64,000 bases of DNA, taken from positions 1-64,000 of the forward strand of contig SBGP01000043.1 in NCBI GenBank assembly GCA_006226595.1, in the 5' to 3' direction. The DNA is from Deltaproteobacteria bacterium (GTDB taxonomy: Bacteria > Myxococcota_A > UBA796 > GCA-2862545). This document shows, in pieces, positions 45,515 through 63,309 of the stretch (positions within the stretch are counted from its first letter, which is position 1; each line of letters starts with the position of its first letter). The notes under the pieces were generated by a model, which did not search any database, was not told the DNA's origin, and saw only the letters and a program-made list of their open reading frames with translations. Both the position numbers and the translations under genes were made by a program.

Positions 45515-48500
45515 CGGTTGGCACTCCTCCGGTGGCGCTTTCGCTCGTGCAGGGGCGTTTGGCCTGCGAGGGCCTCGAGTTCGGCCGTACGGCAGTCACA
45601 GAAGTACGGGTGGTTGCCGACCACCACGAGCTGCTGCCGCGCGCGGGTCACGCCGACGTTCAGGCGGTTCGGGCTGTCGAGGAAGCCGACGCGGCGTGTG
45701 TTCCGCATCGACAGCATGACGAGGTCCGCCTCGCGACCCTGGAAGCGGTCCACCGTGCCGCATACGACCTCGACCGGGGCGTTGCGAACGATGAATCTCG
45801 TCTTTCGGTCATCCTGGGTGACCTCGCGCAGCATGTCCGAGATGGCGCGTTCCTGCTTCGAGTAGAAGCAGAGGCACGCAACCTCCCAGACCTTCGGACG
45901 ATCCCGGTCGGGGGGCCCCTTCTTCCGCGCCCAGGCGATGAAATCGCGCAGCAGACCGGCCATGACCCCAATCTCGTCCTGGTTGATCCCCCCTTGCTCC
46001 CGGCCTTCGACGTGGACCCACACACGCCGGGCAGGGAACTCGCCCCAGTCCCAGCCGAGCTTTGCGTCTCGGAGCTGGATGGTGTTCGCGTCGCTCAGCG
46101 CATGGCCGTCGTAGACGACCTTGCGGGGAAACGAGGCGATGTCCGGATGCATGCGGTGCTGGAAGCTCAGGCTCTCGAACCGCGCAGCGAAATCCCGTGG
46201 GCAGCTGCCCCTCAGGCCCGCGGTCAGCGCGCTGCGCCGCTTCGCTCGATCTACGCCGATACCTTCCTGGAGTACCTCTAGGATGCTGGGAAGCCCGATG
46301 TCCTCGATCTCGGCAACGGGCTCTTCGATGCTCGACGCCAGCGGCTGGAGATAGCCCAGGTCCTTTCGGAGTCGCTCGCGCTCTCGTCCGTTCCGACTGT
46401 GTCGCAGCTCGTGGAGGCGCGTCAGCCGCCAGGCGAGTTCCTGGGCCAGGTCGCGGCGCAGCAGCCAGTCCACCTCGCATGCTTGAGCGTCAGCGAAGGA
46501 CGTGACCGGTTCCCGACGGAACTGTCGTTCCTGGTAGGAGCGCGGGAGTTGTCCGACGCGTTGGAGCCACCACGCCTGCCTGGTGAGCAACACATCGCCC
46601 TCTGCGAGGGGCCCCCCCGTTCCGGCGACGTCTTCCGCGAGGAGCAGATTGGACGGCAGCCACTGCGAGACTTCCCGAATGAGGTCATCCCCCACGAGTA
46701 CCCAGTCCGCCGCCGCGAGCTTCAGAGCGGACGCGTGGCCCTCGCGAAGCTCAGTGACGGTGACGGAGTCCACTGGGCCGACGGAGCCGCCTCGCTTGGC
46801 GACGACCCGCACGACATGCGGCTCCTGCGTTCCTCGGGCCACCAGCTCCTTGGCGATCCATCCGAGCACACCCGGTCGTTCGACGAGAAGCCAGCGCATG
46901 CCGGGCTGGCGCAGTCGCCCTAAGGTCAACCGGAAGAGGAGCAGACATGCACGCTGATGGTCTGCGGGAAAGACCGGTTGGTCCTGCTCGTCCACCAGGT
47001 CGCGGAGGTTTGCCACGATGTCGGCTCGGTCTGCGAAGGGCGGCAGCTGTCGCACGTCACCCACCACCATCCACCGCTTCGCCATGAGCGCGGGGACCAT
47101 GAACTCCTGGATGAGCGTCTTGCTGGCTTCGTCCACGATGAGGACGTCCCAGTGAGGCATCGTGGTGATCGGACGCTCCCAGACCTTCAGGTCCTCGTCT
47201 CGCCCGCGGAACAGGGGGTGGTTGACGATGCCCATCGTCGTTCCGCAGGTCAGGTTGGCCGCCATGATGACGGCCCGTTCGGCCATCTCGTACAGCTCGG
47301 CGTCGCCATAGCCCCGCATCGCTGGTTGCCGCTGCCAGGCGGAGACCAGGGCCTCTACGCGCTCGTCGAGCTGCGTGGTCTGGACCTTGTCGTCGACCTT
47401 GTCGAGCTTGCCGATGCGAACCGCATGGATGGGAGACGAGGACTCGAGCAGTCGCTCCAGCACGTTGTCGATGGCGACATGCGTGGAGGCGCAGAGCAGA
47501 ACTCGCTGGCCCTGCTCTACGAGTTGCTGGACGATCTCACAGATGGCGGTCGTCTTGCCCGAGCCCGGAGGCCCCTCGAGAAACGCGAAGTCGGGGCTGC
47601 CGAGCGCCTTCTGCACGAAGGTGCGCTGCTCGTCGGTGCCATTGCGACTGACATCCGTCAAGGCTCGCCACTCGCCTTCGGGCACGTCGACGGGGGTGAC
47701 CCTCGGCCAGCGCGCATGTTGGGGATCCTCACACAGCCGCAGCAGTCCCTGATGGTGGGGTAGGGGAGCCTCGGAGAGCTGCCTCAGGGCCCGCTGCTGC
47801 AGGTACAGATTCCTCACGTCAACCGGGAGGTAGAGTGTCGTGTCCGCTGGCGGATAGCGGTCGAGCAGCAGTTGGTATCGGTCGGGATCGACCTTGCGCA
47901 CCTTGTAGGTGCTGTCCTGGCGGTGGCGCGCTTGCGTCCAGATTTCCCGCACGTCGCCTTCGCAGAACGCGGCCCTAGGGTCGAGGAACTCCTCCGCCTC
48001 GGAGGACTCCGGCGGGAGTAGTTGGACCCAGCACCCGCGGCGCCCGCCGGAACCCAACTCATGCCAGCGGAACCGCACGCCGTTGTCTCCCCTCAGCGAC
48101 CCATCGGCCGGTGGCTCTTCGACTCGGAGCATTCCGCCGCTCACCTCGAACGAGGTGCCCTTGGCGTCCACCGCACGCCGGAGGCCCTCGAATGCTGGCA
48201 GCGCTTCCGCCTCGACCTCGTCGCCGTCCACGAGGAGGTCGCAGTCACCTACCTGGCCCTCGACGACGAGCAGCCAGTGACGCTCGTCGTCGGTGACTCT
48301 CGGCGGTGAGCGGAGGGACAGTGCGTGTCCATGAAGGTCCACGACCTGACTGGGCGGCGGGGGGGCTGCCTCGAGCTCCACCGAGCACTCCTTCAGGCAC
48401 CAGAGCACTCGGTCGCCCGGGAGCAGCGGGACATTCGTGCGCACTCGGAGCCCGGTGGCGGTCGGGGTGGCGCTCTCGAAACGGACGGGGACACCCCGGT

Positions 48501-48798
48501 TCATGACGAAGCCCATCTGGCCCAGATCGGGGTGTGTTCCAGATGGCCAGCCCGTCAGTACGACGCCGGGTGGGGGACGTGGAACCCGCAGAAGACTGTC
48601 GACAGCTTCGAGTCGGATGGTGACGAGGTTCCGTACTCGCTCCCAGGGAAGCTGGTAGCGGGTCTGGCGCTGCTTGGCCGTGTGGATGGCCTGCCCGAGG
48701 AATCGGTTGAAGGGGCGGAGAACGTTCCCGGCCTGACTCATCAGCGGTGGTGCCACCTTCGGGTGCCCTGCAGCTGCGTGGAAGAACAGGACCTTCAC
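45511..48798 (-). CDS. UPF1/DNA2-like superfamily 1 helicase
   Basis: The 1,095-residue helicase has an N-terminal region of about 380 residues without a recognised domain, then SF1 motifs. These are GPPGSGKTT (Walker A, about residue 408), DVLIVDEASK (motif II), GDVRQLPPFA (motif III), QHRMHPDIA (motif IV, about 879), VDRFQGREADLVMLSMRN (about 1019) and NVGVTRARQQLVVVG (motif VI). This is the NAM7/DNA2/UPF1 class, acting on DNA or RNA. It starts at GTG 48798, overlapping the AAA+ stop as GTGA. The large N-terminus could hold a nuclease or binding module. Confidence 0.88.
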   Translation of the reverse strand: MKVLFFHAAAGHPKVAPPLMSQAGNVLRPFNRFLGQAIHTAKQRQTRYQLPWERVRNLVTIRLEAVDSLLRVPRPPPGVVLTGWPSGTHPDLGQMGFVMNRGVPVRFESATPTATGLRVRTNVPLLPGDRVLWCLKECSVELEAAPPPPSQVVDLHGHALSLRSPPRVTDDERHWLLVVEGQVGDCDLLVDGDEVEAEALPAFEGLRRAVDAKGTSFEVSGGMLRVEEPPADGSLRGDNGVRFRWHELGSGGRRGCWVQLLPPESSEAEEFLDPRAAFCEGDVREIWTQARHRQDSTYKVRKVDPDRYQLLLDRYPPADTTLYLPVDVRNLYLQQRALRQLSEAPLPHHQGLLRLCEDPQHARWPRVTPVDVPEGEWRALTDVSRNGTDEQRTFVQKALGSPDFAFLEGPPGSGKTTAICEIVQQLVEQGQRVLLCASTHVAIDNVLERLLESSSPIHAVRIGKLDKVDDKVQTTQLDERVEALVSAWQRQPAMRGYGDAELYEMAERAVIMAANLTCGTTMGIVNHPLFRGRDEDLKVWERPITTMPHWDVLIVDEASKTLIQEFMVPALMAKRWMVVGDVRQLPPFADRADIVANLRDLVDEQDQPVFPADHQRACLLLFRLTLGRLRQPGMRWLLVERPGVLGWIAKELVARGTQEPHVVRVVAKRGGSVGPVDSVTVTELREGHASALKLAAADWVLVGDDLIREVSQWLPSNLLLAEDVAGTGGPLAEGDVLLTRQAWWLQRVGQLPRSYQERQFRREPVTSFADAQACEVDWLLRRDLAQELAWRLTRLHELRHSRNGRERERLRKDLGYLQPLASSIEEPVAEIEDIGLPSILEVLQEGIGVDRAKRRSALTAGLRGSCPRDFAARFESLSFQHRMHPDIASFPRKVVYDGHALSDANTIQLRDAKLGWDWGEFPARRVWVHVEGREQGGINQDEIGVMAGLLRDFIAWARKKGPPDRDRPKVWEVACLCFYSKQERAISDMLREVTQDDRKTRFIVRNAPVEVVCGTVDRFQGREADLVMLSMRNTRRVGFLDSPNRLNVGVTRARQQLVVVGNHPYFCDCRTAELEALAGQTPLHERKRHRRSANR

Positions 48799-50375
48799 GA
48801 GCGGGACCCCGGAATGAAGGGGTTCCGCGTTGCTTCCTGGCGGAGCCGAGGTGCCGCAGCTTCCGGGTTGTCGGCAGGTAGGACCTCGGGTGGTTCGCCG
48901 GCTGCGAGCCGGGCGCGGACCTTCGCCCAATGCCGCAGGCTGTCGATCTGGTCGCGCATGGTCCGTGAGAGGGGGAACGTCTTGTCGAGCGCTCGTGCGA
49001 TGTGATCGGAGCTCAGCTCAAGGCCCTCGGCGAAGGCGTCGTACATGCCTTCGCGGACCGCTTCCTCCAGCTCGGCGCCCGAGAATCCCACGGAGCGCTC
49101 GGCCAGATCGGCGAGCGCGAAGTCCTTCGGGTCCCGACGCTTCCTCTCCAAGTGGATGGCGAGGATTTCCTCGCGCACCGCGCGCGTCGGCAGGTCCACG
49201 AAGAAGATCTCATCGAAGCGCCCCTTACGGAGCAGCTCCGGCGGGAGCATGTCGATGCGGTTGGCGGTGGCGACGACAAAGACGGGGGCCGTCTTCTCCT
49301 GCATCCACGTGAGCAGCGTACCGACCACACGTGCGGTAGTGCCTCCATCCGTCTGATCCGAGCTGCCCATACCCGCGAGGCCCTTCTCGATCTCGTCGAT
49401 CCAGAGCACGCATGGGGCCAGAGCCTGGGCTACCTGGAGGGCCGTTCGGATGTTCCCCTCGGACTGGCCGACGATGCCGCCGAACACCTTGCCCATGTCG
49501 AAGCGAAGCAGGGGGAACTGCCAGGTGGCGGCCACGGCCTTCGCGAGCAGGCTCTTTCCGCAGCCTTGTACGCCCAGCAACAGGACGCCCTTGGGAGCGT
49601 CCAGGCCGAAGTCGCGGGCGCCCGCTCCGAATGCTCGGCCGCGGCGGTCGAGCCACTCCTTGAGCTGGTCGAGTCCCCCAACGTCCGTCATGCGCGCATC
49701 AGTGGGGTAGTACTCCAACACCTCGCTCTGCTTGATGATGCGTTCCTTCTCCCGCGCGACCAGCGGTACGGATGCGTGATCCAGCCGTTCGAGCTCCGCG
49801 GCAGCCTTGCCGAAGGCCAAGCGCGCTTCCATCACCGTCAGACCTCGCGCGGCGTCCAGGAGCGCCTCGTCCGCGGAGGCCCGGACTCCCATGGCCGCGG
49901 CGGCGTCTTCGAGAACGACCCGCAGCTCGTCCACGCCGGGGAGATCTAACTCGACAGTCGGGATCTCCTTACGTAGGTCCAGGGGCAGGACGGGGAGAGG
50001 CGTAGAGAGGACCACTATCTTTCGCGGGGATGCCGGAAGCCGCGCGAGTTCCCGGAGCCAGCGGAGGATAGGGTGGTGCTCTTCCCGGAGGAACGGCTGG
50101 AAGTCCTCCAAGAGCCAGATGCCGGGCTCATCACCGCCATGGATGTGCTGGAGCAACTCCATTGGGTCGGTGGCGGCGTCGTCCTCGATTCGGAGGTCGC
50201 CATGCTCGTTGCAGGCGAGCAGCCCGGTGGACTGGCTCCAGACGTGGAGCGGGAGGTCCAGTTTGTTGGACAGGCCGATGGCCAGGCCGCGAACCCGCTC
50301 CCATTCGTAGGACGAGATGTGTAGCAGCGGCGCGCCGGCCTTGGACAGGTACAACAAGTGTTCGTAGGTGCTCAT
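48795..50375 (-). CDS. Ycf46-like AAA+ ATPase
   Basis: The 526-residue protein starts at ATG 50375 behind GAGG. The N-terminal 235 residues are the inactive ATPase-like domain seen in Ycf46 proteins (SYEWERVRGLAIGLSNKL, IWLLEDFQPFL). The AAA+ module follows with GVLLLGVQGCGKSLLAKAVA (about 260-280), CVLWIDEIEKGLAGM (about 325), FVVATANRIDMLPPELLRKGRFDEIFF and the FSGAELEEAVREG sensor-2 helix. All catalytic residues are present. Ycf46 is known from plastids and cyanobacteria, where DUF1257 (Ycf35) also occurs. It heads the leftward operon and is its likely motor. Confidence 0.88.
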   Translation of the reverse strand: MSTYEHLLYLSKAGAPLLHISSYEWERVRGLAIGLSNKLDLPLHVWSQSTGLLACNEHGDLRIEDDAATDPMELLQHIHGGDEPGIWLLEDFQPFLREEHHPILRWLRELARLPASPRKIVVLSTPLPVLPLDLRKEIPTVELDLPGVDELRVVLEDAAAAMGVRASADEALLDAARGLTVMEARLAFGKAAAELERLDHASVPLVAREKERIIKQSEVLEYYPTDARMTDVGGLDQLKEWLDRRGRAFGAGARDFGLDAPKGVLLLGVQGCGKSLLAKAVAATWQFPLLRFDMGKVFGGIVGQSEGNIRTALQVAQALAPCVLWIDEIEKGLAGMGSSDQTDGGTTARVVGTLLTWMQEKTAPVFVVATANRIDMLPPELLRKGRFDEIFFVDLPTRAVREEILAIHLERKRRDPKDFALADLAERSVGFSGAELEEAVREGMYDAFAEGLELSSDHIARALDKTFPLSRTMRDQIDSLRHWAKVRARLAAGEPPEVLPADNPEAAAPRLRQEATRNPFIPGSRS

Positions 50376-50563
50376 GGAACCTCGGCTGACAACGCAGATG
50401 CCGACTCGAGTTGAGGCTGGGCCGGCGCTGTGGCAGCGTACGACACGACGGGCGAGGACGGAAGTCAGGTCCGCCTGTAGACGCGGGCGTACCGGTCGGT
50501 CGCACAAATCGAGTTCCACATGAGTCCGCGCCAGAGGTGCTTTGGCGGCGCTCGGGGGTAGGA
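50376..50563. promoter_or_regulatory. Divergent promoter spacer between the two accessory operons
   Basis: These 188 bases lie between the AAA+ gene and the first rightward small gene and must contain both operon promoters, unless one reads through from elsewhere. No clean -35/-10 pair is seen on either strand; TTGAGG near 50413 is a weak candidate. The leftward start has GAGG five bases upstream, the rightward one GGGGTAGGA. Confidence 0.45.
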
Positions 50564-51612: not shown

Positions 51613-52920
51613 GTGGAAGTAGCCGCCCAACCGCACCTCCCGTTCGAACCGAGGCCCGAAACGAGTTCACGGAATGTGGTCTCGCTATTCGCCGGCATCG
51701 GCGGACTGGAGCTTGGACTGCATCGGTCCGGGCTCTACCACACGGAGGTCGCGTGGGAATTGATGCCGGAGGCCCGCGCTTGCATCTCGCAGCACTTCGG
51801 CCTGAAGGAAGGAAGCGACGCTCTGGCTGATGTGACGGACTCTTCCTTCGCAGGGCGCCTTCCCGAGCGCATCAGCCTCCTGACTGCTGGGTTCCCTTGC
51901 CAGGACTTGAGCCAAGCGGGCAAGACGGCAGGTATCAGCGGGGCTCGCTCGGGGCTGATTCTCCATGTGCTGGACACACTGGCCGCGCGCCCCGCCGCAA
52001 ACCGCCCGGACTGGCTTCTCCTCGAGAACGTGGCCTTCATGCGTCACATCGGCGGGGGAGAGGCGATGAGGATCGTGCTCTCCAGGTTGACCGAGCTGGG
52101 CTATGCGTGGGCGTATCGCCAGCTGGACACACAGTCGTTCGGGCTGCCGCAACGCCGCAAGCGAATCTACTTCGTGGCGTGCAAGTTTGGGCACGGAGAC
52201 CCGCGAGCTGTGCTGCTTTCCGACGATGCAAAGCGTCCGACGGTACCGTCCGGCCCTGGTTGGAAGAACGGCGTGGCTTGTGGCTTCTACTGGACCGAGG
52301 GAAATCGTGGGGTGGGGTGGGGGTACGACTGCGTTCCCGCTCTGAAGGGGGGATCGACTGTCCAGATTCCTTCGCCGCCGGCCATCCTGCATCCGACCGA
52401 AGGGCTGGTCACTCCCACGATCGAGGACGCAGAGGCCCTGCAGGGCTTCGACCGCGGATGGACTCGGCCAGCGATCGGTCAAGGGGACGACCGGAACGGA
52501 CGTATGCGGTGGTACCTGGTGGGCAACGCCGTGTCGGTACCGGTCTCCCAATGGGTTGGGGCGCGTTTGGCCAAGCCCGTCACATACCCGGAGGCCCGCA
52601 TCGGGCGCGCCCGTCCCATCGAAGGAGACCGATGGCCGACGGCGGCTTGGCGTGTCGAGCCCGATGTGGCCGCGGTCGCGAGCCCAGAGTGCGACTGGCC
52701 GTTGGACGTCCAGACACGGGACGCACTTGGCCTTCCAACGCGCTCGCTGACGGAACTCCTGGCCGAGGGAACCAGCAGCCGGCCTATGCTTTCGAGACGA
52801 GCAACCGCGGGATTCCTGACCCGTTTCGAGCGGAGCAGCCTACTCGCGAAAACGGACACCGAGCTGCGCGAGGCGCTAATCGAGGCTCTCGAGGGACGAC
52901 TCGCGATGGATTCCGAGTAG
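51613..52920 (+). CDS. DNA cytosine-5 methyltransferase
   Basis: The 435-residue enzyme shows the ordered 5mC methylase motifs: I (SLFAGIGGLELGL), IV with the catalytic cysteine (GFPCQDLSQAG), VI (LLLENV), VIII (QRRKRIYF) and X (GNAVSVPVSQW). The target-recognition region between VIII and X is about 120 residues. It transfers a methyl group from S-adenosylmethionine to cytosine C5. The C-terminal 90 residues beyond motif X are unusual and may contact the other system proteins. The start is GTG 51613. A Vsr gene for T:G repair is at the far end of the operon. Confidence 0.92.
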   Translation: MEVAAQPHLPFEPRPETSSRNVVSLFAGIGGLELGLHRSGLYHTEVAWELMPEARACISQHFGLKEGSDALADVTDSSFAGRLPERISLLTAGFPCQDLSQAGKTAGISGARSGLILHVLDTLAARPAANRPDWLLLENVAFMRHIGGGEAMRIVLSRLTELGYAWAYRQLDTQSFGLPQRRKRIYFVACKFGHGDPRAVLLSDDAKRPTVPSGPGWKNGVACGFYWTEGNRGVGWGYDCVPALKGGSTVQIPSPPAILHPTEGLVTPTIEDAEALQGFDRGWTRPAIGQGDDRNGRMRWYLVGNAVSVPVSQWVGARLAKPVTYPEARIGRARPIEGDRWPTAAWRVEPDVAAVASPECDWPLDVQTRDALGLPTRSLTELLAEGTSSRPMLSRRATAGFLTRFERSSLLAKTDTELREALIEALEGRLAMDSE

Positions 52921-52966: not shown

Positions 52967-55555
52967 TTGACGTTCGCAGAACTACTCCGCTCCCATCTTG
53001 TCGCCATCGACCTGTCTTCAAAGAGCGCGTCGAAGTTCCGGGACTTGACCGAGGCAGTCGAGGCCTTTCTTGGTGTCGAAGGCTTGGTGATCAAGGCCCT
53101 GGCGGCTCCGAAGAACTTCGGCAATCGAATCTCGGAAGCCACGGCGGATGGTCGTGCGCTGATCGTCGTCGCCGAAGGCGATGTCGACCTCGATGCCCTC
53201 GAACGTGCCTATGTGGGACGGGCGCTCAATCATGTGCCGATGTTGCTCGTTTCGGCCGCTACGGGAGACGATTGGCATCCCAGGGCCGTTTGGACTGCGG
53301 GTGAACAGAACCCGTTTCCGGCTGACATCCCCACGTTCGTGCTGGACCTACAGGTGGACGGACCACGACTGGATGGAGAGGGCGTCCAGGCGGTCGTCGA
53401 GGCCGTACGACGCTGTGACGGAAGCGATTGGGATGCGGGTGTGGCGTCACTGCTTCAACTCGCCGAAGGGTCCAGCGGGCTTGCCGCAAAGTTCGTTGGC
53501 GATGCGAAGAACGCACACAACCGGGTCCGGGAGGCCATGGGGAGGCGCCCAGGTGTCTTCGTGGCCATCGGCGACCACGCATTGAAGGAACAGCTTTCGA
53601 GATCGGTGGAAGCCAACAAGGAGCTCACCGGATGGGGATTCTTGGCCCTTCAGCGGGAAGGCCGGCTGGAGCTGATCGAGGTGTCCGCCCCAACGGAGGA
53701 GGAGATTCAGATGCAGGGCAGCGATGAGCTCGATGAATACGAGCCCGGCGGCAGCGACGACGCCGTCGAGGAACTCCAGTATCAGGTGAACGCCACCGTA
53801 GCGGACCTGACTCGCTACCTGCCGTTCGATGCCACTGCTGGGAACCTATATGAAGAACACATCAGCTCGAGTCAGAGGCTGGAGTTCGACACCTCCGCAC
53901 TTGGGTTCATCCACGCGCTGGTGAAGGACCCCGAGGTGTCGATGGTCGTACTGACCGGCAACGCCGGTCACGGCAAGACGCACCTGTGTCGTCGGCTTCT
54001 AAGCGAGGCAGGGCTCAAGCCTCGCGAGGCGATGGCGGCGATGAGTGGGGACCTCCGAGGCGAGTCCCCAATCGAGCTTCCCGGGCTCCCCCGGCGGATT
54101 CGCATCCTGAAGGACCTCTCCGAGATCGAGCCCGTGGCGTCTGCGGCGGAGAGGCTGGTCGAGCTGCTCGAGGACACCGACACACTGGCCATCGTGTGCG
54201 CGAACGAGGGGCGTCTGCGTGCGGCGGTATCGGTGAATCCGGGTCGGCTCGGCCTCCTGGTGCGCACGCTGGAAGCAGGCATCCGTGACGGGGCGACCTG
54301 CATCGAACCGACGGTGCACGTGGTGAACCTGAACTTCCAGGCGGTCGCACCTACGAGAGGTGAGGCGTTCCTCGACTTCGCCCTCGACCACTGGGTCGGC
54401 CACAAGAATCGATGGAAGAAGTGCGAGAGCTGTCTCGCCGGGCCAGACTGTCCCATCTTGGCCAATCGCACGGCACTGTCGCTGAGCCCCGAGACGAGGC
54501 AGGCGGCGCGGCCGGTGCGCGACTCGCTCACGCACCTCGTACGGCTGGCCGAGCAGACCGGCTACGTCCTGACCATTCGAGAGGCGCTGATCTTGGTAGC
54601 CTTTCTCGTTACCGGCGGCCTCGACTGCCCGGCAGTACATGGGCGTCATCGCCTTGGCGACCTCGATGGGTTTGGCTACCTGGACTCGCTGTTCGAACGG
54701 CAGCTGCCGGATACGGATATGTCCCAGCTCGGTGTGCTCGAGCGCATCCGGCGCTTCGATCCTGGCCGCGTGGCAATGCGCTCTGTGGACGAACGGCTCC
54801 ACGAGGAACTGGAGCGGTCGGGGGCGTTTGGGTCGGAGGTCTTGGAAGTCGGGGCACGACCGCCGAGTACAAGAGATCAGCTACGTCGTGAGCAGATGAC
54901 GCACTTGGACTCCCTAAGGCGCGCGCGTCGAAGGGATTTCTTCACGCACGTGCCGGAGGAGCTTGGCCGTTCGACGAGGCTCGGCCTGCGCTTCCATGAC
55001 GACTTCCTTGCCCTCCAGAGCCACTCGCTCGACGACGCGAAGATGTTGGCTATCCTGGAGCGCCTGGTCGCGGGCCTGCATGTCGTTCAAGGCGTGCGCA
55101 CGTCCAGCCAGTCCGCGGGTTTGCTGTACCTCGTCGACCCGGCCTTTTCGCGTAGTTCAAATCGCTCCGCCGTGATTGCCCATCAATTCGACCAGACCAA
55201 CCTCGAACTGGTTGGCGAGGCACAGTTCTGGACGGAGACGGACGGAGAACCGCAGCTGCTCGAAGCCGTGGATTGGCTGGATCGACGAGTCGTGTTGGCG
55301 CACCGCGAGCAGCTCGGCTCTCCCCCGGCCCCCATTCTCGATTTCGACCTCCTCCAGTTCGAGTTCGTCATGAGATCGGCTGCTGGAGTCGTGTTCAACG
55401 AATTCAATGCGGCGGAGCGGAAGCGCATCGTAAGCCGGCTCGCGCGGATTGCGGAGGAGCGGAAGAGCCCACGCGACATCAAGGTGATGGAGGGGGGCCG
55501 ACTGCGGCGCCTGATCCTAGAGCGGGACAACAGTTTCAGGGTGGCGAGCACGTGA
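52967..55555 (+). CDS. P-loop ATPase with cysteine motif (DptF-like)
   Basis: The 862-residue protein starts at TTG 52967 after GAGAGAGG. Residues 1-300 are unassigned and alpha/beta. Walker A GNAGHGKTHL is near residue 330, followed by TLAIVCANEGR, which could be Walker B and sensor 1. Around residue 485, KCESCLAGPDCPILANR has a Cys pattern (C-x2-C-x5-C) like that I recall from DptF, the ATPase of phosphorothioation-dependent restriction. The rest is helical. Its order before the next two genes also copies dptF-dptG-dptH. The DptF relation is inferred; no dnd modification gene is in the window. Confidence 0.6.
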   Translation: MTFAELLRSHLVAIDLSSKSASKFRDLTEAVEAFLGVEGLVIKALAAPKNFGNRISEATADGRALIVVAEGDVDLDALERAYVGRALNHVPMLLVSAATGDDWHPRAVWTAGEQNPFPADIPTFVLDLQVDGPRLDGEGVQAVVEAVRRCDGSDWDAGVASLLQLAEGSSGLAAKFVGDAKNAHNRVREAMGRRPGVFVAIGDHALKEQLSRSVEANKELTGWGFLALQREGRLELIEVSAPTEEEIQMQGSDELDEYEPGGSDDAVEELQYQVNATVADLTRYLPFDATAGNLYEEHISSSQRLEFDTSALGFIHALVKDPEVSMVVLTGNAGHGKTHLCRRLLSEAGLKPREAMAAMSGDLRGESPIELPGLPRRIRILKDLSEIEPVASAAERLVELLEDTDTLAIVCANEGRLRAAVSVNPGRLGLLVRTLEAGIRDGATCIEPTVHVVNLNFQAVAPTRGEAFLDFALDHWVGHKNRWKKCESCLAGPDCPILANRTALSLSPETRQAARPVRDSLTHLVRLAEQTGYVLTIREALILVAFLVTGGLDCPAVHGRHRLGDLDGFGYLDSLFERQLPDTDMSQLGVLERIRRFDPGRVAMRSVDERLHEELERSGAFGSEVLEVGARPPSTRDQLRREQMTHLDSLRRARRRDFFTHVPEELGRSTRLGLRFHDDFLALQSHSLDDAKMLAILERLVAGLHVVQGVRTSSQSAGLLYLVDPAFSRSSNRSAVIAHQFDQTNLELVGEAQFWTETDGEPQLLEAVDWLDRRVVLAHREQLGSPPAPILDFDLLQFEFVMRSAAGVVFNEFNAAERKRIVSRLARIAEERKSPRDIKVMEGGRLRRLILERDNSFRVAST

Positions 55556-56937
55556 TCAGTCGACGGGAGCAAGGAAAACGGACGGTTCAACACACCTTCG
55601 GTGGGGTGCTCTCACAGCAAGGCAGAGGCTTCTACACTGCGCTGGAGCTGTTCGCGATCTTGCGGGGAGAACACCTGCTCGAGAAAGCAGAGGGAGAGCT
55701 CGGGCTCGACTCGACCGCGCCGCGTCTTCTGCCGACCAGTGATGAGTGCCTCTACCTACGGCCCAGTCATGACTTCGCTCGACGGCTGATGGCGGGGGAT
55801 CCACGCGTGAGTGGACACGAGAAGCTGAAGGGCCCTGCGACCGAGCGCACGCTTCGTGCCCTGCTACGCGGGTTGGAGAACCCTATCCCTGGGGCGAGGC
55901 AGGCTCCGAAGAACTGGAGCTCTCGACACTTCTTCCCGTTCCCTGGAGAGCTGGCTCACTACGACGCCGTTTATCGCGGACGAGGCGCAAGTCGGAAGGT
56001 TTCCACCGAGACCTACATCTTCAGAGGAGGGGGCGGGCTCGCGCACAAGATCTTGCGGACGGACCCTGATGCGGACCGCCTCGCTCGGACACGTGATGGG
56101 TTTCGGCGCCTGGTGTCGGACTCCGGTAGCACCGTGGGTCGCATCGCGTCGGCACTATCGAACCTTGATGATTCCAAGGCCTATGACTGGTCCGACCCGT
56201 CGGAGGAGGCCCTGAAGACGGCGAGTTTCCGCGACCAGGTGGAGGAGCGAAGCTGGGCGGATGCAGACCGGCAGGAAACACGCTGGTTCGAGTTGCTGCG
56301 GGATGGCGTGAGCCGGGTTCTACGACGGAAGGAGCTAACGGAGTTCCATCGTGTCGAAGTGCTGATGCATCTCGTTCCTTTCTGCCTGAGCATGCATCAG
56401 CTCGCCATGGCTTGGCGTGCCCTGGGGCGCGATGAGAACGGATCGCTGGTGCTTGACGCGGGTCACGGGCCAGGTGCCGTGCGCGAGCTTGCTCGGCAGC
56501 ATCTCAACCAGTGCTCCGGCGCCATTACTGCGGCGCTCATGCATCGCGCCGGTGAGATGGGCTACGAAGAGCTAGGCACGGGGCGGACAGCTTGGCGGGA
56601 CGGGCCGCGAACGTTCTTCACCGCGACGATGTACGCCGTTGGTGCAGTGAACGCGCCAACCGGACGGCGCTTCCTGGCGGTGAGGCCGGCGCTGCTCGAG
56701 ACGCTGGTCGCCGCGTTCGTCGACGGTCACATTCCGTTCTCGACCTTCACCCGGGACATCCTGTGTGGGCGCCTCGGGCTGGTCACCGACTACCCGTCCG
56801 CCCAGGCGGCCGGAGGCTTCGACCTCGACAGGGCCGATCTGGATGAAAACCGCCGTCACCTGGGAACCAGGTTGGCGGGACTCGGACTCCTTCAGGAGTA
56901 CTCGGACGCGACCAAGATGGTGGGGATTGTGCAATGA
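55552..56937 (+). CDS. Unknown helical protein (DptG-like position)
   Basis: The 461-residue protein starts at GTG 55552, overlapping the ATPase stop as GTGA, and its own stop overlaps the next ATG (ATGA). It is mostly helical. Near the end, PALLETLVAAFVDGHIPFSTFTRDILCGRLGLV followed by LGLLQEYSDATKMVGIV resembles the C-terminal style of DptG-type proteins that sit between DptF and DptH. Sequence support is weak, so the assignment rests on gene order and size. Confidence 0.5.
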   Translation: MISRREQGKRTVQHTFGGVLSQQGRGFYTALELFAILRGEHLLEKAEGELGLDSTAPRLLPTSDECLYLRPSHDFARRLMAGDPRVSGHEKLKGPATERTLRALLRGLENPIPGARQAPKNWSSRHFFPFPGELAHYDAVYRGRGASRKVSTETYIFRGGGGLAHKILRTDPDADRLARTRDGFRRLVSDSGSTVGRIASALSNLDDSKAYDWSDPSEEALKTASFRDQVEERSWADADRQETRWFELLRDGVSRVLRRKELTEFHRVEVLMHLVPFCLSMHQLAMAWRALGRDENGSLVLDAGHGPGAVRELARQHLNQCSGAITAALMHRAGEMGYEELGTGRTAWRDGPRTFFTATMYAVGAVNAPTGRRFLAVRPALLETLVAAFVDGHIPFSTFTRDILCGRLGLVTDYPSAQAAGGFDLDRADLDENRRHLGTRLAGLGLLQEYSDATKMVGIVQ

Positions 56938-59900
56938 ACTCGACTGAAGCCATTGCTGGCGTCGCTGCGGCACGCGTTCGGGACCTCTTCGCCGAGGGGT
57001 CCGCGGGGGCCATGCTTCGAGTGCGTGGCCTCGACAAAGAGGAGATCACAGCTCTCGTCGAGAAGTTGGAGGGGTGGAGTCCTACGGCCGGTGGATCTCT
57101 GCTGCAAATCGTCGTTACGACCACGCAGGCCTGGCCCGGGCTGCCTTCGAAGTGCGTCTTGCCACCGGACGCCAGCTCTACGACCTTCCGCAACTCTTCC
57201 GACCCCGTACTCTTCGTGGAGTACGAAGAGTACAGCGACGCCCAGGGACTCCGGAACGTGCGAGCGATCACCGACCGTGAGCTCATCTCGGAGTCGGCGG
57301 GCCGACGACGTCTGACATCGGGACTCCGCGGTGGACTCGGCGAGTCGAGCATCCTGGACCAAGCGCTCGAGCGCGTGTTTCGGGCGTTCCGTCAGGCGGG
57401 GAATCGCGCGACGCCGCCCATGCGTCGCTGGACGGCACTGGTGGCGGAGGTCTGCCGCGTCCTTGCCTCCGCTCGGGCGTTGGATTCTCAGTCTGTTTGG
57501 ACAGCCGTCGGCGATGGCCTCTGGGCTGGCGGGCTCTTTCCGGACACGCGGCTACCTGCGGCGAACGAAACCGAGCGCGACCGTTGGTTGCGCAGAAACG
57601 TCGACCAGGTCGCCCGGCTCACCGCCAACAGCCGTGGTCGGGATCTGGATGAACTGTACGAGAAGGTCCAGTCCGTCCAGTTCACCGAACTCGACGGCAG
57701 TGAGACCCCGGAGGCGCGTGCGAGCGAACTGCGGCGTGAGTTCTCCGAGATCATCCGAGCGGACCGACGGCATACCTTCGAGAAGGTGGAGCTTCGATAC
57801 TGGGAGCAGGTAGAGGCACGTCAGACGGATCGCAAGGGACTTGGCGATCGTGTCCGCGAGCAGATTGCCGCAGCGGACCCGGACCGGGAATTCGAGCTCC
57901 CGGAAGAGCTGATCGATGGGTTGAATGCGGGCGATGCCGAGTCGGCAGTCGAGTTTCTGGATCTCGAGCCGGCGGAGGGACAGACGCAGCGGTTGTCCAT
58001 GCTTCTCGATCCGAAGCTGCGCGGGCGACTGGAGAAGGTGGCGGATCCGCCGCAACGCGCCACGAGAGCTCCGCTGCGCAAGCTACTGGCGGAGTTGTAC
58101 TCGGTCGTGTCGGATGAGGACGAGGAGCTAGGCGGGCTACTGCTCGAGCGGCGTCAACGAAAGACGGATGACGACCTCTCCGCGGCGCTGTTTGCTTGGG
58201 TCTACGGCCCGACACTCAGGCGGGTTTCGGAGGCGACTGCGGACCGCGCCGTGTCCCTTCTGGTCAACGACGAGCTCCTAGACACCTCGGCGCTCGCCAA
58301 GTTCATCGAGCAGGCGGAGTCGGGGAAGGTGGCGGACTCTCTGGAGCCAAACTGGGCCGACCTACGGCTGCAGGTCCGTTTGGAGGGCAAGAAGTCGCCG
58401 CTGGTCTCCTTCGAATGGCGACCCCGAGAGATTCCAGGATTGCTTGCCCTCGCTCGGCAGGTCTGGCGCGCGGACGCGGCCGTTTGGAGTGGGCCGGAGG
58501 AGTCCAACTATGACGACTGGGTCCGCTCGGCTTTCGAGGCCGCTCCGCTCCGTGATGGAACACAGGCGGGGTCAGATGGCTTGAAGGCCTGGGCCGACAT
58601 TCGGACGGACCACTTGCTGGCACTGCGGAGTGGCTTGGACGGCAGTGCGATGCTCCACTACGCCTCGCGGTTCGAGTCGGAGCTTGGGCGCGTGCGCGAG
58701 GAACACGTTCCTCAAGGTGTGCGGGACGAGGTGGTGGGTGAGCTGCTGCGACTGGACACCTTTCGATCCGACGATGGCAGCGAAGTGGTCATGCTGGCGA
58801 CCCATCCGATTCGACAGCGATGGGTGGGAACCCACTTCGCCGAGATGGAGCGGCTGCTGCGGGACTGCCTCGAGGGCAGCCTTCGCCTAAACCCCATCAA
58901 TGACGGCGCACTCTTCTTCGACCACATCGAGAAGGTGAGTCCCCACGCTCAGCCTCCAGTGCTGGTCAACGGCGACGAGCAGCTTCTCGCGGTTCGCGAA
59001 CAGGATTGGGCAGAGCACTTCGAGGTGCTCCAGGATCAGAAGGCGTCCCGGAAGGAGTGGCTGGCTGGCCTTGACGACGGAGCGATCGACGAGGTTGCAG
59101 ACGTCGTGGCCCGGTATGTCGCTGCGTATCCGCACAAGGTGGACGGCCTTCATCTCCTGTTCATCGTGAGGAGGCGTGGGGCGCGCAGCCTCGAGCGGTT
59201 GGTCGCTCGTGTCCGGAAGCTCTTGAAGAAGTCGCTTGGCGAGGACGCGACCATCAGGCTCTCCCTGGTTGTCGAGCCGCTTGAGGTGCGGGAGGTCGAG
59301 CGCGTGCTTCAGCAGTTCGACTCCTCCGACAAGCGAAACAGCTCCGACTTCCCGGAACTCGATGTTCGGCTTCATGAATGGGACGTCGAGACCCACACGT
59401 CTCCGCCACTGGACGAGATTTCCAGCGAAGTGGACATCGTCGTGGTGCCGAACTTGTTTGGCGCCGAGACAGTGACGCGAGAGGCCACCGTCAGTTCGTC
59501 GGGGATCCGTACCCAGTTCTCACCTTGGCTCGACGAGCCGACGCGAATCGAGTCCGCGGACAGCAAGAGCGCAACCTCCGTGAGCCGAATCCTGCTTCCT
59601 TCGGGTGGTGACGTGCTGCTCGAGGCGTGGTCCACCATCAACACCCGTCAGTTCCGGCGGCGACCGGTTGGTAGCGACCCGACGCCAGATGACGTGGACT
59701 ACTTCGAGCTCCAGGTGCCCTTCGGGGAGAGTGCTGGGTTCTTCAAGGAGCTGCACAAGCTGGCCCACTGGGTTGTCACCGTGGACGCCTTCGTGGGCCG
59801 CGAACAGGTGGACGGGCTGAAGGACGGACCGGACGTGATCCTGGTCAAGACGGGCGTAGGCAGCAACGATGGCTACCGGATGGTCGTGAGTTCCGAATCG

Positions 59901-62708
59901 GGCCGCGATTTCATCGTCCGACGGCTGCAGCGACGCCTCCACGACCAAATGCCCGACGATGGCACGTTCGACTTCGGCCAGGTCGCGCACCAGCTCTACG
60001 AGCGAGCGCGCTATCTGGTGCCTGGAATCGTGCTCAGGTCGCTGGGACTCGGGCGCACGGCGGCCGAGATGGTGGGGCTGGTATGTGCAAGGGCTCGGGT
60101 GGCCGAGAAGCACCCCGTGGATCTTCAGGGGCACGGCTTCGAGGCCTGGATCAGCCTCGACGAACACGCCGAGTGGCTCGGGGGCGTACGACGCTCGCGC
60201 GCTGACATGGCTCGGTTCGTCGGGCGATGGACCGGGAAGACCTTGGAGCTGGAAGTGCTCGTCGTCGAAGCGAAGATGAGGCGATCGGTGGACCTCTCTC
60301 GGGCCGACGAGCAGATCCAGCGGTCCGTACAGCTTCTCGACGCGGCACTGTCCAGCGAGGACAGCGACGAAGCATTCAAGGACGTGGCGTTCTGGCGGCG
60401 GGAGGTCCTTCGGGCGATCGAGCAAGCAAGCGTGGCACCGGAGGACCTTCGAGCCGCGTGTCGTATCCACGTCGATGGAGAGGTTCGAGGCGCGCTGGAT
60501 GATGCGCATCGAGCTTCGATTCTCTCAGGTCGGTTCGAGCTACGCTCCGTCGAAGGCGTTCTGGTGACCCTCGCCGACCATGGGCACGTCGACGACCAAC
60601 GGACTCCCGCAGGCTTCGAGTGGCTCCGTTTGAACACGCGTGAGCTATCGCATCTTCTCGCCCGGCTGACCCGCGAGAACGAGTGGACGGATGTGCCCAC
60701 GCAACGTCCTGCACCTGCGCCGACGGAGACGCCAGAGCCGACCGGACAGCGAACGAGCCCGACTACGGCACCCGCCGAATCCGACCAGGCGCTGAAGCCT
60801 TCAAATCGGGGAGGGGAGACTCCCAGAGCCTTGCAGCGGTACCAACGGGTTCTGGATGTGCTGAGCGAGCACAGGGTCGGGGTCGTCGCGCTGCCGGACG
60901 AGCCAGCGGTGGAGGGGCCTGGTTTCTATGTCTTCCGGGTTGGCCTGGAGAGTGGCCAACGACCGGCGTCGGTCTACAAACTCGGCGAGGAGCTGAAGTA
61001 CGGGCTTGGGCTGGACGCCGGTCATGAACCACGCTCCTTTGCCGACCGCGGTGCTGTGGTCATCGAGGTCCCGAAGCGTAGCGACGAACGCTACTACGTG
61101 GACGCGGCGCAGCTCTGGGCCATTACTGAGTGGCCAGAAGGGAGGCTGTACGCGCCCCTGGGAGCTGACGTGCGGGACGAAGTCGTAGGAATCGAGTTCT
61201 CGTCGTCCCGGTCGCCTCATCTCTTGATCGGTGGCATGACCGGCGGCGGAAAGTCCGTCGCTCTGGAGACACTCCTTTGGGGCCTCGCCCAGCACTACCC
61301 CCCAGAGGAGCTCGAGCTTTGGCTCGTCGATCCTAAGGGCAACGAATTCGTGCAGTTCGAGCAACTCCCCCACGTCCGCCAGCCCATCGGAATGGATGCG
61401 GACGATGCCATCGAGATGCTCGAAGAGGCCGTCGAGGAGATGGACCGCAGGTACCGGCTCATGAAGGACGCCAGCCGAGCGAGGCGGAGCCGCGTGGCCG
61501 ACCTCGCCGGCTACAACCAATTGGTCGGGAAGGGAGAACGGTTCGCTTGGATTGTCGTTGTCCTGGACGAGTTCGCTGATCTGACGGCGGAGAAGGAGTC
61601 GCGAAAGACGATCGAGCTGCTGCTTCAGCGCCTTGCCCAGAAGGCACGAGCGTGCGGCATCCACTGCGTGGTCGCGACCCAGAAGCCCTCCGCCGAGGTG
61701 ATCAGCACGACCACGCGTTCGAACCTTGGTGCGCAGCTAGCGCTGCGGGTGCGGAGTGCCGTCGACAGTCGAGTGATCATGGAGACCACTGGTGCCGAGA
61801 GCCTCGCTGGAAACGGAGACGGCTTCCTGCGACTGTCTGGAGAGGAGCCCATTCGTCTCCAATGCGCGAAGGTCTCGGACGAGTCCCGTGAAGCGGCGCA
61901 GGCGCGCTGGGGGGGGGAGCCAAGTCTCCCCGAGGACTCCCCGGATGTGGATGAACCGTTGCCTTCCAGACTGGTCCTCTACGAGCGCTACGAAGTGATC
62001 GCGGAGATCTCTGGTGGCGCCATGGCCCAAGCGTACAAGGTGCGGGACAAGGAGTCCGGGGACGATGTCTTCCTCAAGCGTGCGGTGTTGGACGGCTCGT
62101 TCAACGGCGACGCCATGATGCGGGAGGCGAACATCTACCAGAAGCTCCAGCGCGCCTACGCGAGCGGGGTCATGGACGTCAGGGACGTTCAGTCGGACGG
62201 CAACAGCATGGCGATCATCACGGATTTCGCCGATGGTGGGACGCTAGAGGCACACGTTCGTCGGCAGGAACGAGGCTTCTTGACCGGAACGGAAACCAAG
62301 CAGATCGCGCTCGAAATCCTGGAGGGGCTGCGCAGCCTCCATGGCGTGGAGGTCATCCATCGAGACCTGAAGCCCGCCAATATCTTGAGGCATCAGCAGA
62401 GCTGGAAGCTTGCCGACTTCGGCATCGCCAAGAACCTCCGGCGCCTGATGACGCAGCGGACCTTCCAGCAGGCTGGCACGAAGGGCTACGCGCCCCCAGA
62501 GCAGTACCAAGGTGCCGAGGCGCACGCGTCCGCAGACATCTATAGCTTTGGGAAGCTGATCACCTTCATGCTCACCGGTGGCACCGACGTAGACACGATT
62601 CCGTCCGATGTCTGGGGAAGGCTCGTTCGCCGTTGCACGGAGAGGGACCCTTGGGAGCGGGCCGACCTCGAGGAGGTTGAGAAGGAGCTGAAGAGACTGC
62701 CCATCTAG
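56934..62708 (+). CDS. FtsK/HerA-type DNA motor fused to a Ser/Thr kinase (DptH-like)
   Basis: The 1,924-residue protein begins at the ATG overlapping the upstream stop. Residues 1-1,400 have no recognised domain. An FtsK/HerA-type ATPase follows, with IGGMTGGGKSVAL near 1,433, WLVDPKGNEF, WIVVVLDEFADL near 1,540 and VVATQKP. From about 1,680 to the end is a complete protein kinase with EISGGAMAQAY, VFLK, HRDLKPANIL near 1,809, ADFG and GTKGYAPPEQ. Both parts keep their catalytic residues. The fusion suggests that DNA translocation or restriction by the complex is controlled by phosphorylation. DptH itself, as I know it, has no kinase. Confidence 0.8.
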   Translation: MNSTEAIAGVAAARVRDLFAEGSAGAMLRVRGLDKEEITALVEKLEGWSPTAGGSLLQIVVTTTQAWPGLPSKCVLPPDASSTTFRNSSDPVLFVEYEEYSDAQGLRNVRAITDRELISESAGRRRLTSGLRGGLGESSILDQALERVFRAFRQAGNRATPPMRRWTALVAEVCRVLASARALDSQSVWTAVGDGLWAGGLFPDTRLPAANETERDRWLRRNVDQVARLTANSRGRDLDELYEKVQSVQFTELDGSETPEARASELRREFSEIIRADRRHTFEKVELRYWEQVEARQTDRKGLGDRVREQIAAADPDREFELPEELIDGLNAGDAESAVEFLDLEPAEGQTQRLSMLLDPKLRGRLEKVADPPQRATRAPLRKLLAELYSVVSDEDEELGGLLLERRQRKTDDDLSAALFAWVYGPTLRRVSEATADRAVSLLVNDELLDTSALAKFIEQAESGKVADSLEPNWADLRLQVRLEGKKSPLVSFEWRPREIPGLLALARQVWRADAAVWSGPEESNYDDWVRSAFEAAPLRDGTQAGSDGLKAWADIRTDHLLALRSGLDGSAMLHYASRFESELGRVREEHVPQGVRDEVVGELLRLDTFRSDDGSEVVMLATHPIRQRWVGTHFAEMERLLRDCLEGSLRLNPINDGALFFDHIEKVSPHAQPPVLVNGDEQLLAVREQDWAEHFEVLQDQKASRKEWLAGLDDGAIDEVADVVARYVAAYPHKVDGLHLLFIVRRRGARSLERLVARVRKLLKKSLGEDATIRLSLVVEPLEVREVERVLQQFDSSDKRNSSDFPELDVRLHEWDVETHTSPPLDEISSEVDIVVVPNLFGAETVTREATVSSSGIRTQFSPWLDEPTRIESADSKSATSVSRILLPSGGDVLLEAWSTINTRQFRRRPVGSDPTPDDVDYFELQVPFGESAGFFKELHKLAHWVVTVDAFVGREQVDGLKDGPDVILVKTGVGSNDGYRMVVSSESGRDFIVRRLQRRLHDQMPDDGTFDFGQVAHQLYERARYLVPGIVLRSLGLGRTAAEMVGLVCARARVAEKHPVDLQGHGFEAWISLDEHAEWLGGVRRSRADMARFVGRWTGKTLELEVLVVEAKMRRSVDLSRADEQIQRSVQLLDAALSSEDSDEAFKDVAFWRREVLRAIEQASVAPEDLRAACRIHVDGEVRGALDDAHRASILSGRFELRSVEGVLVTLADHGHVDDQRTPAGFEWLRLNTRELSHLLARLTRENEWTDVPTQRPAPAPTETPEPTGQRTSPTTAPAESDQALKPSNRGGETPRALQRYQRVLDVLSEHRVGVVALPDEPAVEGPGFYVFRVGLESGQRPASVYKLGEELKYGLGLDAGHEPRSFADRGAVVIEVPKRSDERYYVDAAQLWAITEWPEGRLYAPLGADVRDEVVGIEFSSSRSPHLLIGGMTGGGKSVALETLLWGLAQHYPPEELELWLVDPKGNEFVQFEQLPHVRQPIGMDADDAIEMLEEAVEEMDRRYRLMKDASRARRSRVADLAGYNQLVGKGERFAWIVVVLDEFADLTAEKESRKTIELLLQRLAQKARACGIHCVVATQKPSAEVISTTTRSNLGAQLALRVRSAVDSRVIMETTGAESLAGNGDGFLRLSGEEPIRLQCAKVSDESREAAQARWGGEPSLPEDSPDVDEPLPSRLVLYERYEVIAEISGGAMAQAYKVRDKESGDDVFLKRAVLDGSFNGDAMMREANIYQKLQRAYASGVMDVRDVQSDGNSMAIITDFADGGTLEAHVRRQERGFLTGTETKQIALEILEGLRSLHGVEVIHRDLKPANILRHQQSWKLADFGIAKNLRRLMTQRTFQQAGTKGYAPPEQYQGAEAHASADIYSFGKLITFMLTGGTDVDTIPSDVWGRLVRRCTERDPWERADLEEVEKELKRLPI

Positions 62709-62748: not shown

Positions 62749-63309
62749 ATGGCGGGCATGAGCCGGTCAGAACAGATGGCGCGGGTGCGGGGGCGTGACA
62801 CGAAGCCCGAGGTCCGCCTCCGGAAGGCGCTTTGGGCGGAGGGACTCCGATATCGGATCGGCACGAGGGTGGAGGGGGTTCGGCCTGACCTCGCGTTCAT
62901 CGGGCCTCGGGTGTGCGTGTTCGTGGACGGGTGCTTCTGGCATGGATGCCCGCATCATTATGTGCGGCCGCGTACAAGGGAGGCGTTTTGGGCGGGGAAG
63001 CTGCGGGCCAACAACGAGCGAGATCGCGAGCAGACCAGACGCCTGGAGTCCAGGGGCTGGAGGGTGGTGCGCATCTGGGAGCATGAGGTCGAGCAAGACC
63101 TCGAGGGTGTGGTCGCACTCGTTCGGGCGCAGCTTGACGGCCAAGCTACAGTCGTCAGACAGTGGCGGGTGGTGCAGGTCATACCGCTTGACGACGGGTC
63201 ACGGCACGAGCGTCGGCTGATGGAGCTGTTGAGGTCGCCGGCTGAAGGCTTCGCGTATGACGGGCCACGCAACTCGCGGACGAGGATGCTGCCCTTGGAG
63301 CTCACATGA
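62749..63309 (+). CDS. vsr: Very short patch repair endonuclease Vsr
   Basis: The 186-residue protein matches Vsr: MSRSEQMARVRGRDTKPEVRLRKAL, RPDLAFIGPRVCVFVDGCFWHGCPHH with the catalytic acidic residue and zinc ligands, and RRLESRGWRVVRIWEHEV. Vsr nicks T:G mismatches left by deamination of 5-methylcytosine, and so protects sites methylated by the enzyme earlier in the operon. It is about 40 residues longer than typical Vsr at the C-terminus. It starts at ATG 62749 behind AGAGGAG, 40 nt after the kinase fusion. Confidence 0.92.
   Translation: MAGMSRSEQMARVRGRDTKPEVRLRKALWAEGLRYRIGTRVEGVRPDLAFIGPRVCVFVDGCFWHGCPHHYVRPRTREAFWAGKLRANNERDREQTRRLESRGWRVVRIWEHEVEQDLEGVVALVRAQLDGQATVVRQWRVVQVIPLDDGSRHERRLMELLRSPAEGFAYDGPRNSRTRMLPLELT

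Follow-up and report, generated by a model that had tools for sequence, protein, structure and literature searches.

The gene at 56934–62708 encodes a 1,924-aa protein that, judging from its sequence, serves as H subunit in a restriction module of the SspFGH/DndFGH type, and a Hanks-type Ser/Thr protein kinase has apparently been added to its C-terminus. The module is paired with a C5-cytosine DNA methyltransferase and a Vsr-type endonuclease, and our preferred reading, to which we give a probability of about 0.5, is phosphorylation of the FGH complex in cis by this kinase, which would most likely act as a brake.

A five-gene operon encoding F, G and H subunits

In the window (the whole 64-kb stretch of DNA that was analysed), the operon runs in the order C5-methyltransferase, F, G, H and Vsr. 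Its genes are listed here together with an extension of F that is absent from the corresponding protein of G354, a genome of the same phylum.

51613–52920, + strand: C5-cytosine DNA methyltransferase, with which the conserved block begins (Pfam DNA_methylase, E 3.2e-37; NCBIfam dcm above cutoff)
52967–55555, + strand: SspF/DndF-like F subunit, a P-loop protein of 862 aa (PADLOC SspF, E 1.4e-38)
52967–53773, + strand: N-terminal extension of F, about 270 residues, absent from G354 F
55552–56937, + strand: G subunit, SspG/DndG-like (PADLOC SspG, E 2.7e-18, for the longer ORF 55273–56937)
56934–62708, + strand: SspH/DndH-like H subunit of 1,924 aa, bearing the kinase at its C-terminus
62749–63309, + strand: Vsr-type endonuclease (Pfam Vsr, E 1.6e-21; TIGR00632 above cutoff)

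The PADLOC matches to SspF, SspG and SspH fall in order on consecutive overlapping genes, which thus appear to form the three-gene F-G-H operon of SspFGH/DndFGH. The initial annotation had overlooked this SspH/DndH subunit in its five-gene operon, for which the three PADLOC models and the flanking methyltransferase and Vsr genes are the evidence. The most likely start of G is GTG 55552, overlapping the F stop (GTGA), and SspG matches best towards the C-terminus of the protein (465–547); the H ATG overlaps the G stop in turn (ATGA). F contains a Walker A motif, GNAGHGKT, at residue 331 and a Walker B motif, VCANEG, at 410, a predicted DndF-type combination in which Walker A is intact and Asn replaces the Walker B Asp. 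Its N-terminal extension had no match in plasmids or the PDB, gave one sub-threshold KaiC match and no recognisable family in Pfam, and was modelled by AlphaFold with a pLDDT of 51.5. The C-terminal part of the Vsr-type endonuclease resembles DUF559/MTES_1575. None of 4 genomes, this one and G354 included, gave a match to DndC (TIGR03183), the only phosphorothioation marker sought, and by this marker the genes of a phosphorothioate-based SspFGH appear to be lacking. On the opposite strand of the window (45511–50519), an SF1 helicase gene (PADLOC MkoA-like) adjoins and overlaps an AAA ATPase gene (PADLOC IetA-like), a pair that is possibly another defence operon beside the FGH block.

Domain content of the H protein

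H is read as a single open frame from ATG 56934 to TAG 62708 without interruption, and GC by codon position is coding-like over the whole ORF, including motor, linker and kinase. A reading of 56934–62708 as an opposite-strand or chance frame was rejected, the opposite strand being full of stops. The domains and motifs of H are as follows.

56934–60935, + strand: DndH/SspH core, residues 1–1334 (PADLOC, hhalign)
60159–60275, + strand: putative REase active site D1076...E1112-A-K1114, invariant with G354 and aligning to DD..EAK of the SspH of genome G340
60936–61874, + strand: FtsK alpha/beta motor, residues 1335–1647 (Pfam FtsK_SpoIIIE)
61875–61979, + strand: motor–kinase linker of 35 residues, acidic/proline in composition, absent in G354
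61980–62705, + strand: Hanks-type Ser/Thr protein kinase domain, residues 1683–1924 (Pfam Pkinase; PADLOC; catalytic residues)

The 1,400 N-terminal residues, previously described as unassigned, appear to be largely the SspH/DndH core. The PADLOC model SspH PDLC02803 matches residues 566–1144, a profile built from H together with its closest relative aligned by hhalign to the full SspH of G340 over residues 720–1647 (864 columns, probability 99.9%), and the region is 35.5–37% identical to the syntenic H of G354. Residues 1–216 were weakly collinear with the SspH N-terminus (P 0.008, probability 5%, a weak match), and the DndH models of PADLOC were absent among the best 25 matches for H. D1076...E1112-x-K1114, a REase-type motif, would provide the catalytic residues of a REase domain with putative activity.

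Regarding the C-terminal half, Pfam FtsK_SpoIIIE covers residues 1398–1586 (E 6.9e-40), and the solved FtsK 2iuu is the best match of the H profile that includes the motor region (E 1e-57). Pfam Pkinase covers residues 1686–1884 (E 1e-33). This agrees with the initial description of an FtsK motor and a Ser/Thr kinase in one uninterrupted 1,924-aa chain. Motor residues K1440 (Walker A), D1545/E1546 (Walker B) and Q1583 (the ATQ glutamine) are present, as are kinase residues K1715, E1731, D1811 (HRD), N1816, D1828 (DFG), D1868 and R1909. The claim that the catalytic motifs are intact therefore stands for the catalytic residues of both halves, including the canonical Lys, Glu, HRD Asp and DFG Asp of a Hanks-type kinase, but not for the glycine loop (ISGGAMAQAY), in which GxGxxG is reduced to the middle one of its three glycines. 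The kinase matched the PADLOC models mad6 and PD-T4-6; since the same models match an ordinary chromosomal kinase of the same genome more strongly, the resemblance is non-specific. A single-sequence AlphaFold model of the linker–kinase piece had a pLDDT of 37.2. Codon usage was also examined for signs that the kinase had been captured from the host chromosome, but proved uninformative: the kinase is only mildly host-like, and its value is reached by 8 of 112 operon segments.

Relatives of the operon and absence of the kinase

G354, whose genome is a single contig of 10.75 Mb, keeps the order methyltransferase, F, G, H and Vsr, with identities of 43.5% for the methyltransferase, 41.8% for F from residue 270 on, 44.6–47% for G, 54.7% for the H motor and 48.8% for Vsr. 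Its H is a protein of 1,674 aa that ends with QCAKVRSP-stop directly after the motor, and both linker and kinase are absent. The possibility that G354 encodes the kinase as a gene of its own next to the operon was rejected, with 0 kinase matches in the surrounding 34 kb. Compared with G354, the present lineage thus seems to have two additions, the 270-residue extension of F and the kinase on H.

All four SspH relatives whose H tail is complete (G354, G340, G489 and G201) lacked the kinase, a count of four H proteins from which G236 (L045) was left out for a DndH cut by the contig end and G490 (L072) for having no H match to the queries. Because these relatives lack it, the kinase is, by this comparison, an accessory C-terminal addition to H. 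Among 52 scanned loci, many of them short and hence with limited flank at some C-termini, 40 ORFs besides the present gene (36 distinct genes) matched the motor and none of them also matched the kinase. In plasmids, 1,222 records matched the motor–kinase half, of which 0 covered 80% of it in one place. The suggestion that the fusion is unusual is borne out by all three sets (4 of 4 complete-tail relatives, 36 of 36 other FtsK-type genes and 1,222 plasmid records).

The N-terminal part of H was detected in 1 of 58 relatives (the present genome only) and in 2 of 282 genomes of the phylum (the present one and G201), and the G-subunit profile in 4 of the 317 genomes that belong to the class of G354 and in 2 of 71 from the present genome's class (the present one and a marginal match, E 6e-4). 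For the G subunit, 0 of 32 pattern stretches were confirmed in viral contigs and plasmids gave no match; a genome-contig scan gave 1 weak locus. Two other loci were noted. G056 encodes a 1,673-aa protein (L043:961-5979) with a C-terminal FtsK motor 32.5% identical to that of H and an N-terminus without a match to SspH/DndH models, possibly another FtsK-capture system, and G354 has adjacent ORFs of 1,796 and 1,432 aa (L053:719-10404) at most about 25 kb from its methyltransferase-F-G-H-Vsr block.

Proposed mechanism

We propose that F and G would recognise the DNA and its mark state, that the H motor would translocate DNA while the H REase domain nicks or cuts it, and that the tethered kinase would phosphorylate the FGH complex in cis and set its activity. 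The likeliest sign would be that of a brake, which keeps a self-damaging nuclease quiet until an infection cue. Domain content, operon, synteny and the lack of the kinase in relatives were observed directly; complex formation, restriction activity, the C5 mark as self signal, the kinase substrate and the sign of regulation are inferred. In view of the absence of DndC matches in the four genomes and of the synteny of the block, which is that of two genomes, the self mark probably comes from the C5-methyltransferase instead of phosphorothioation.

Gating of an FGH machine by phosphorylation is plausible because a phage kinase has been reported to inactivate DndFGH: the N-terminal kinase of the phage protein JSS1_004 phosphorylates DndFGH and thereby inactivates it, phosphorylation alone being not enough in vivo (PMC12345140). 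All three genes are reported to be needed for SspFGH, which is toxic to cells without the mark when unrestrained (PMC8092258), and Pgl reportedly requires the kinase activity of PglW (PMC4365076). A brake acting by cis-phosphorylation is suggested by these reports taken together, its sign being drawn from a phage kinase that acts in trans, whereas the Pgl kinase is needed for resistance and so has the opposite sign. Also weighing against the brake are that this is a single case, no relative with the same fusion having been found, that a nine-base G tract (G9) in the linker makes the in-frame state fragile, and that the glycine loop retains one of three glycines.

Alternative readings of the kinase and of the joint

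The main functional rival to the cis-phosphorylation brake, which we consider rather unlikely, holds that the kinase does not regulate FGH but is a backup effector, freed when restriction fails, that phosphorylates cell proteins and stops growth. An analogous role has been proposed for kinase, HEPN or NERD domains attached N-terminally to DndF, where Rakesh et al. (PMC10853773) describe fused S/T/Y kinases along with other effectors and read them as co-effectors. The likeness of the H kinase to the defence kinases PD-T4-6 and mad6 and the unmatched 270-aa N-terminal extension of F point in the same direction, but the former is discounted by the stronger match of the ordinary chromosomal kinase, and a local substrate is favoured both by the position of the kinase on H beside the motor and by the fact that DndFGH itself is known to be phosphorylated. 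Other rivals to the brake concern the joint between motor and kinase, which could be a fixed fusion, a phase-variable one, or the product of an indel that joined two genes, and in which two features matter.

61909–61917, + strand: G9 homopolymer in the linker
61947–61954, + strand: candidate latent gene joint, at which an in-frame GTG (V1672) overlaps TGA (61952–61954)

G9 is the only G or C run of at least 8 in the window. The genome (7.23 Mb) has nine distinct G/C tracts of at least 9 (from 12 overlapping pattern matches) and 45 of at least 8 (from 57), and about 1.4e-4 tracts of at least 9 are expected in the 105-nt linker, a value that overstates the surprise, as linkers favour Gly/Pro codons and the tract had been seen before the test was chosen. 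Since G9 sits in the linker, the in-frame fusion is run-length-sensitive; lengths of 7, 8, 10 and 11 would give H of 1672, 1687, 1673 and 1688 aa, respectively, with the motor intact and the kinase lost. It is rather unlikely that H and a free kinase are two adjacent genes joined by a one-base assembly error or a recent indel in the tract. G9 lies exactly at the joint, H with 7 or 10 G would be close in length to the kinase-less H of G354, and TGA 61952–61954, read only with these two lengths, would overlap GTG 61947, which has GAGGA 10 nt upstream, so that the joint resembles the tight F/G and G/H overlaps; the genome is also a 117-contig draft. On the other hand, the assembly reads 9 G, codon usage from the tract to GTG weakly favours the fused frame (density ratio 2.5 versus the 10-G frame and 7.5 versus the 8-G frame), and a start codon near a purine-rich site is, by rough estimate, not rare by chance. 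Slippage of the tract could instead toggle individual cells between an H that bears the kinase (at 9 G) and a canonical H (at other lengths), which we regard as quite unlikely. The scarcity of such tracts in the genome, the intact motor at all four alternative lengths tested and the G-tract of the Pgl defence system in a GC-rich bacterium, which is reported to contract and expand (PMC4365076), support such phase variation, whereas the Gly/Pro-codon richness of linkers, the location of some other tracts in linkers or gene ends and the post hoc choice of the test argue against it; our literature search on poly-G phase variation in anti-phage defence found none. More doubtful still is a contingency switch between a self-phosphorylating and a canonical kinase-less motor, by which a population would hedge between regulated and unregulated restriction.

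The initial annotation had named a frameshift or assembly error, and absence of the fusion in close homologues, as observations that would count against it. These are borne out in part: the closest homologue does lack the fusion, and a frameshift-prone tract does lie at the joint. The data thus support a lineage-specific or tract-dependent fusion rather than an ancient design.

Three other nine-base G/C tracts of this genome were inspected. A C9 tract (L066:3011-3019, contig C103) lies 10 nt past the likely GTG of the best-matching other Ser/Thr kinase and before its domain, a possible second phase-variable kinase. Another (L063:3644-3652; contig C41, 97143-97151) falls within the gene of a dpdE-like helicase (PADLOC DpdE, E 1.5e-198) located 35 kb downstream on the same contig as the FGH block, which hints at a large defence island. 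The third lies in the Pro-rich linker of a 961-aa frame on the minus strand (L061:936-3818, contig C30), in which aldo/keto reductase is joined to polynucleotide-kinase/phosphatase-like domains.

Comparison with known systems

How DndFGH-type machines spare their own genome is a standing question, and phages have been reported to disable them by a kinase. The H kinase, absent in relatives, suggests that such a machine may be switched by self-phosphorylation, and its fusion to H would allow a one-protein test of cis-phosphorylation gating both motor and nuclease. The operon also adds a C5-methyltransferase- and Vsr-partnered branch of FGH, seen in two genomes of the phylum, and a run-length-sensitive site where one base gains or loses a domain.

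The module shares with SspFGH (Wang et al. 2021, PMC8092258) the F-G-H triad and the FtsK-like C-terminus of SspH, and the three PADLOC models match in order. SspFGH as published is paired with SspBCD phosphorothioation, whereas here a C5-methyltransferase and Vsr flank the operon and H bears a kinase. With DndFGH as described by Rakesh, Aravind and Krishnan 2024 (PMC10853773), it shares an F in which Walker A is canonical and Walker B has N for D, and an H with a REase followed by HerA/FtsK; the kinases of that system lie on the N-terminus of DndF, whereas here the kinase lies on the C-terminus of H. SspFGH/DndFGH systems are further characterised by an inactive SF2 helicase lobe, HTH, beta-sandwiches, TRD and inactive DAM in the N-terminal part of H, and by a G that is a triple winged-helix protein. 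A C-terminal kinase on DndH/SspH is not described in the available portions of PMC10853773 or PMC12839542. Likewise, a search of the literature on DndH, SspH or FtsK with a kinase, most subscription papers lying outside it, found no C-terminal H kinase.

MADS combines a methyltransferase, a kinase and an FtsK-like protein as separate genes. Its mad6 is the best kinase model for H after SspH, and mad8 matches the H motor (PADLOC), whereas here kinase and motor are in one H chain; membership in MADS was rejected, NCBIfam MADS6 scoring 88.2 bits against a cutoff of 460. JSS1_004 (PMC12345140) is likewise a protein kinase reported to act on an FGH-type complex, but it is a phage protein that disables the defence in trans, whereas the kinase here belongs to the defence protein. 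Pgl (BREX type 2) resembles the present system in having a kinase, PglW, in a methyltransferase-based defence and in its G-tract variation, and differs in having no FtsK motor fusion and other core proteins. In this comparison, the present genes appear to have the F-G-H operon, the F Walker motifs, the H REase domain and the H motor of the FGH family, and what would be new is the kinase on the C-terminus of H and the pairing of FGH with a C5-methyltransferase and Vsr.
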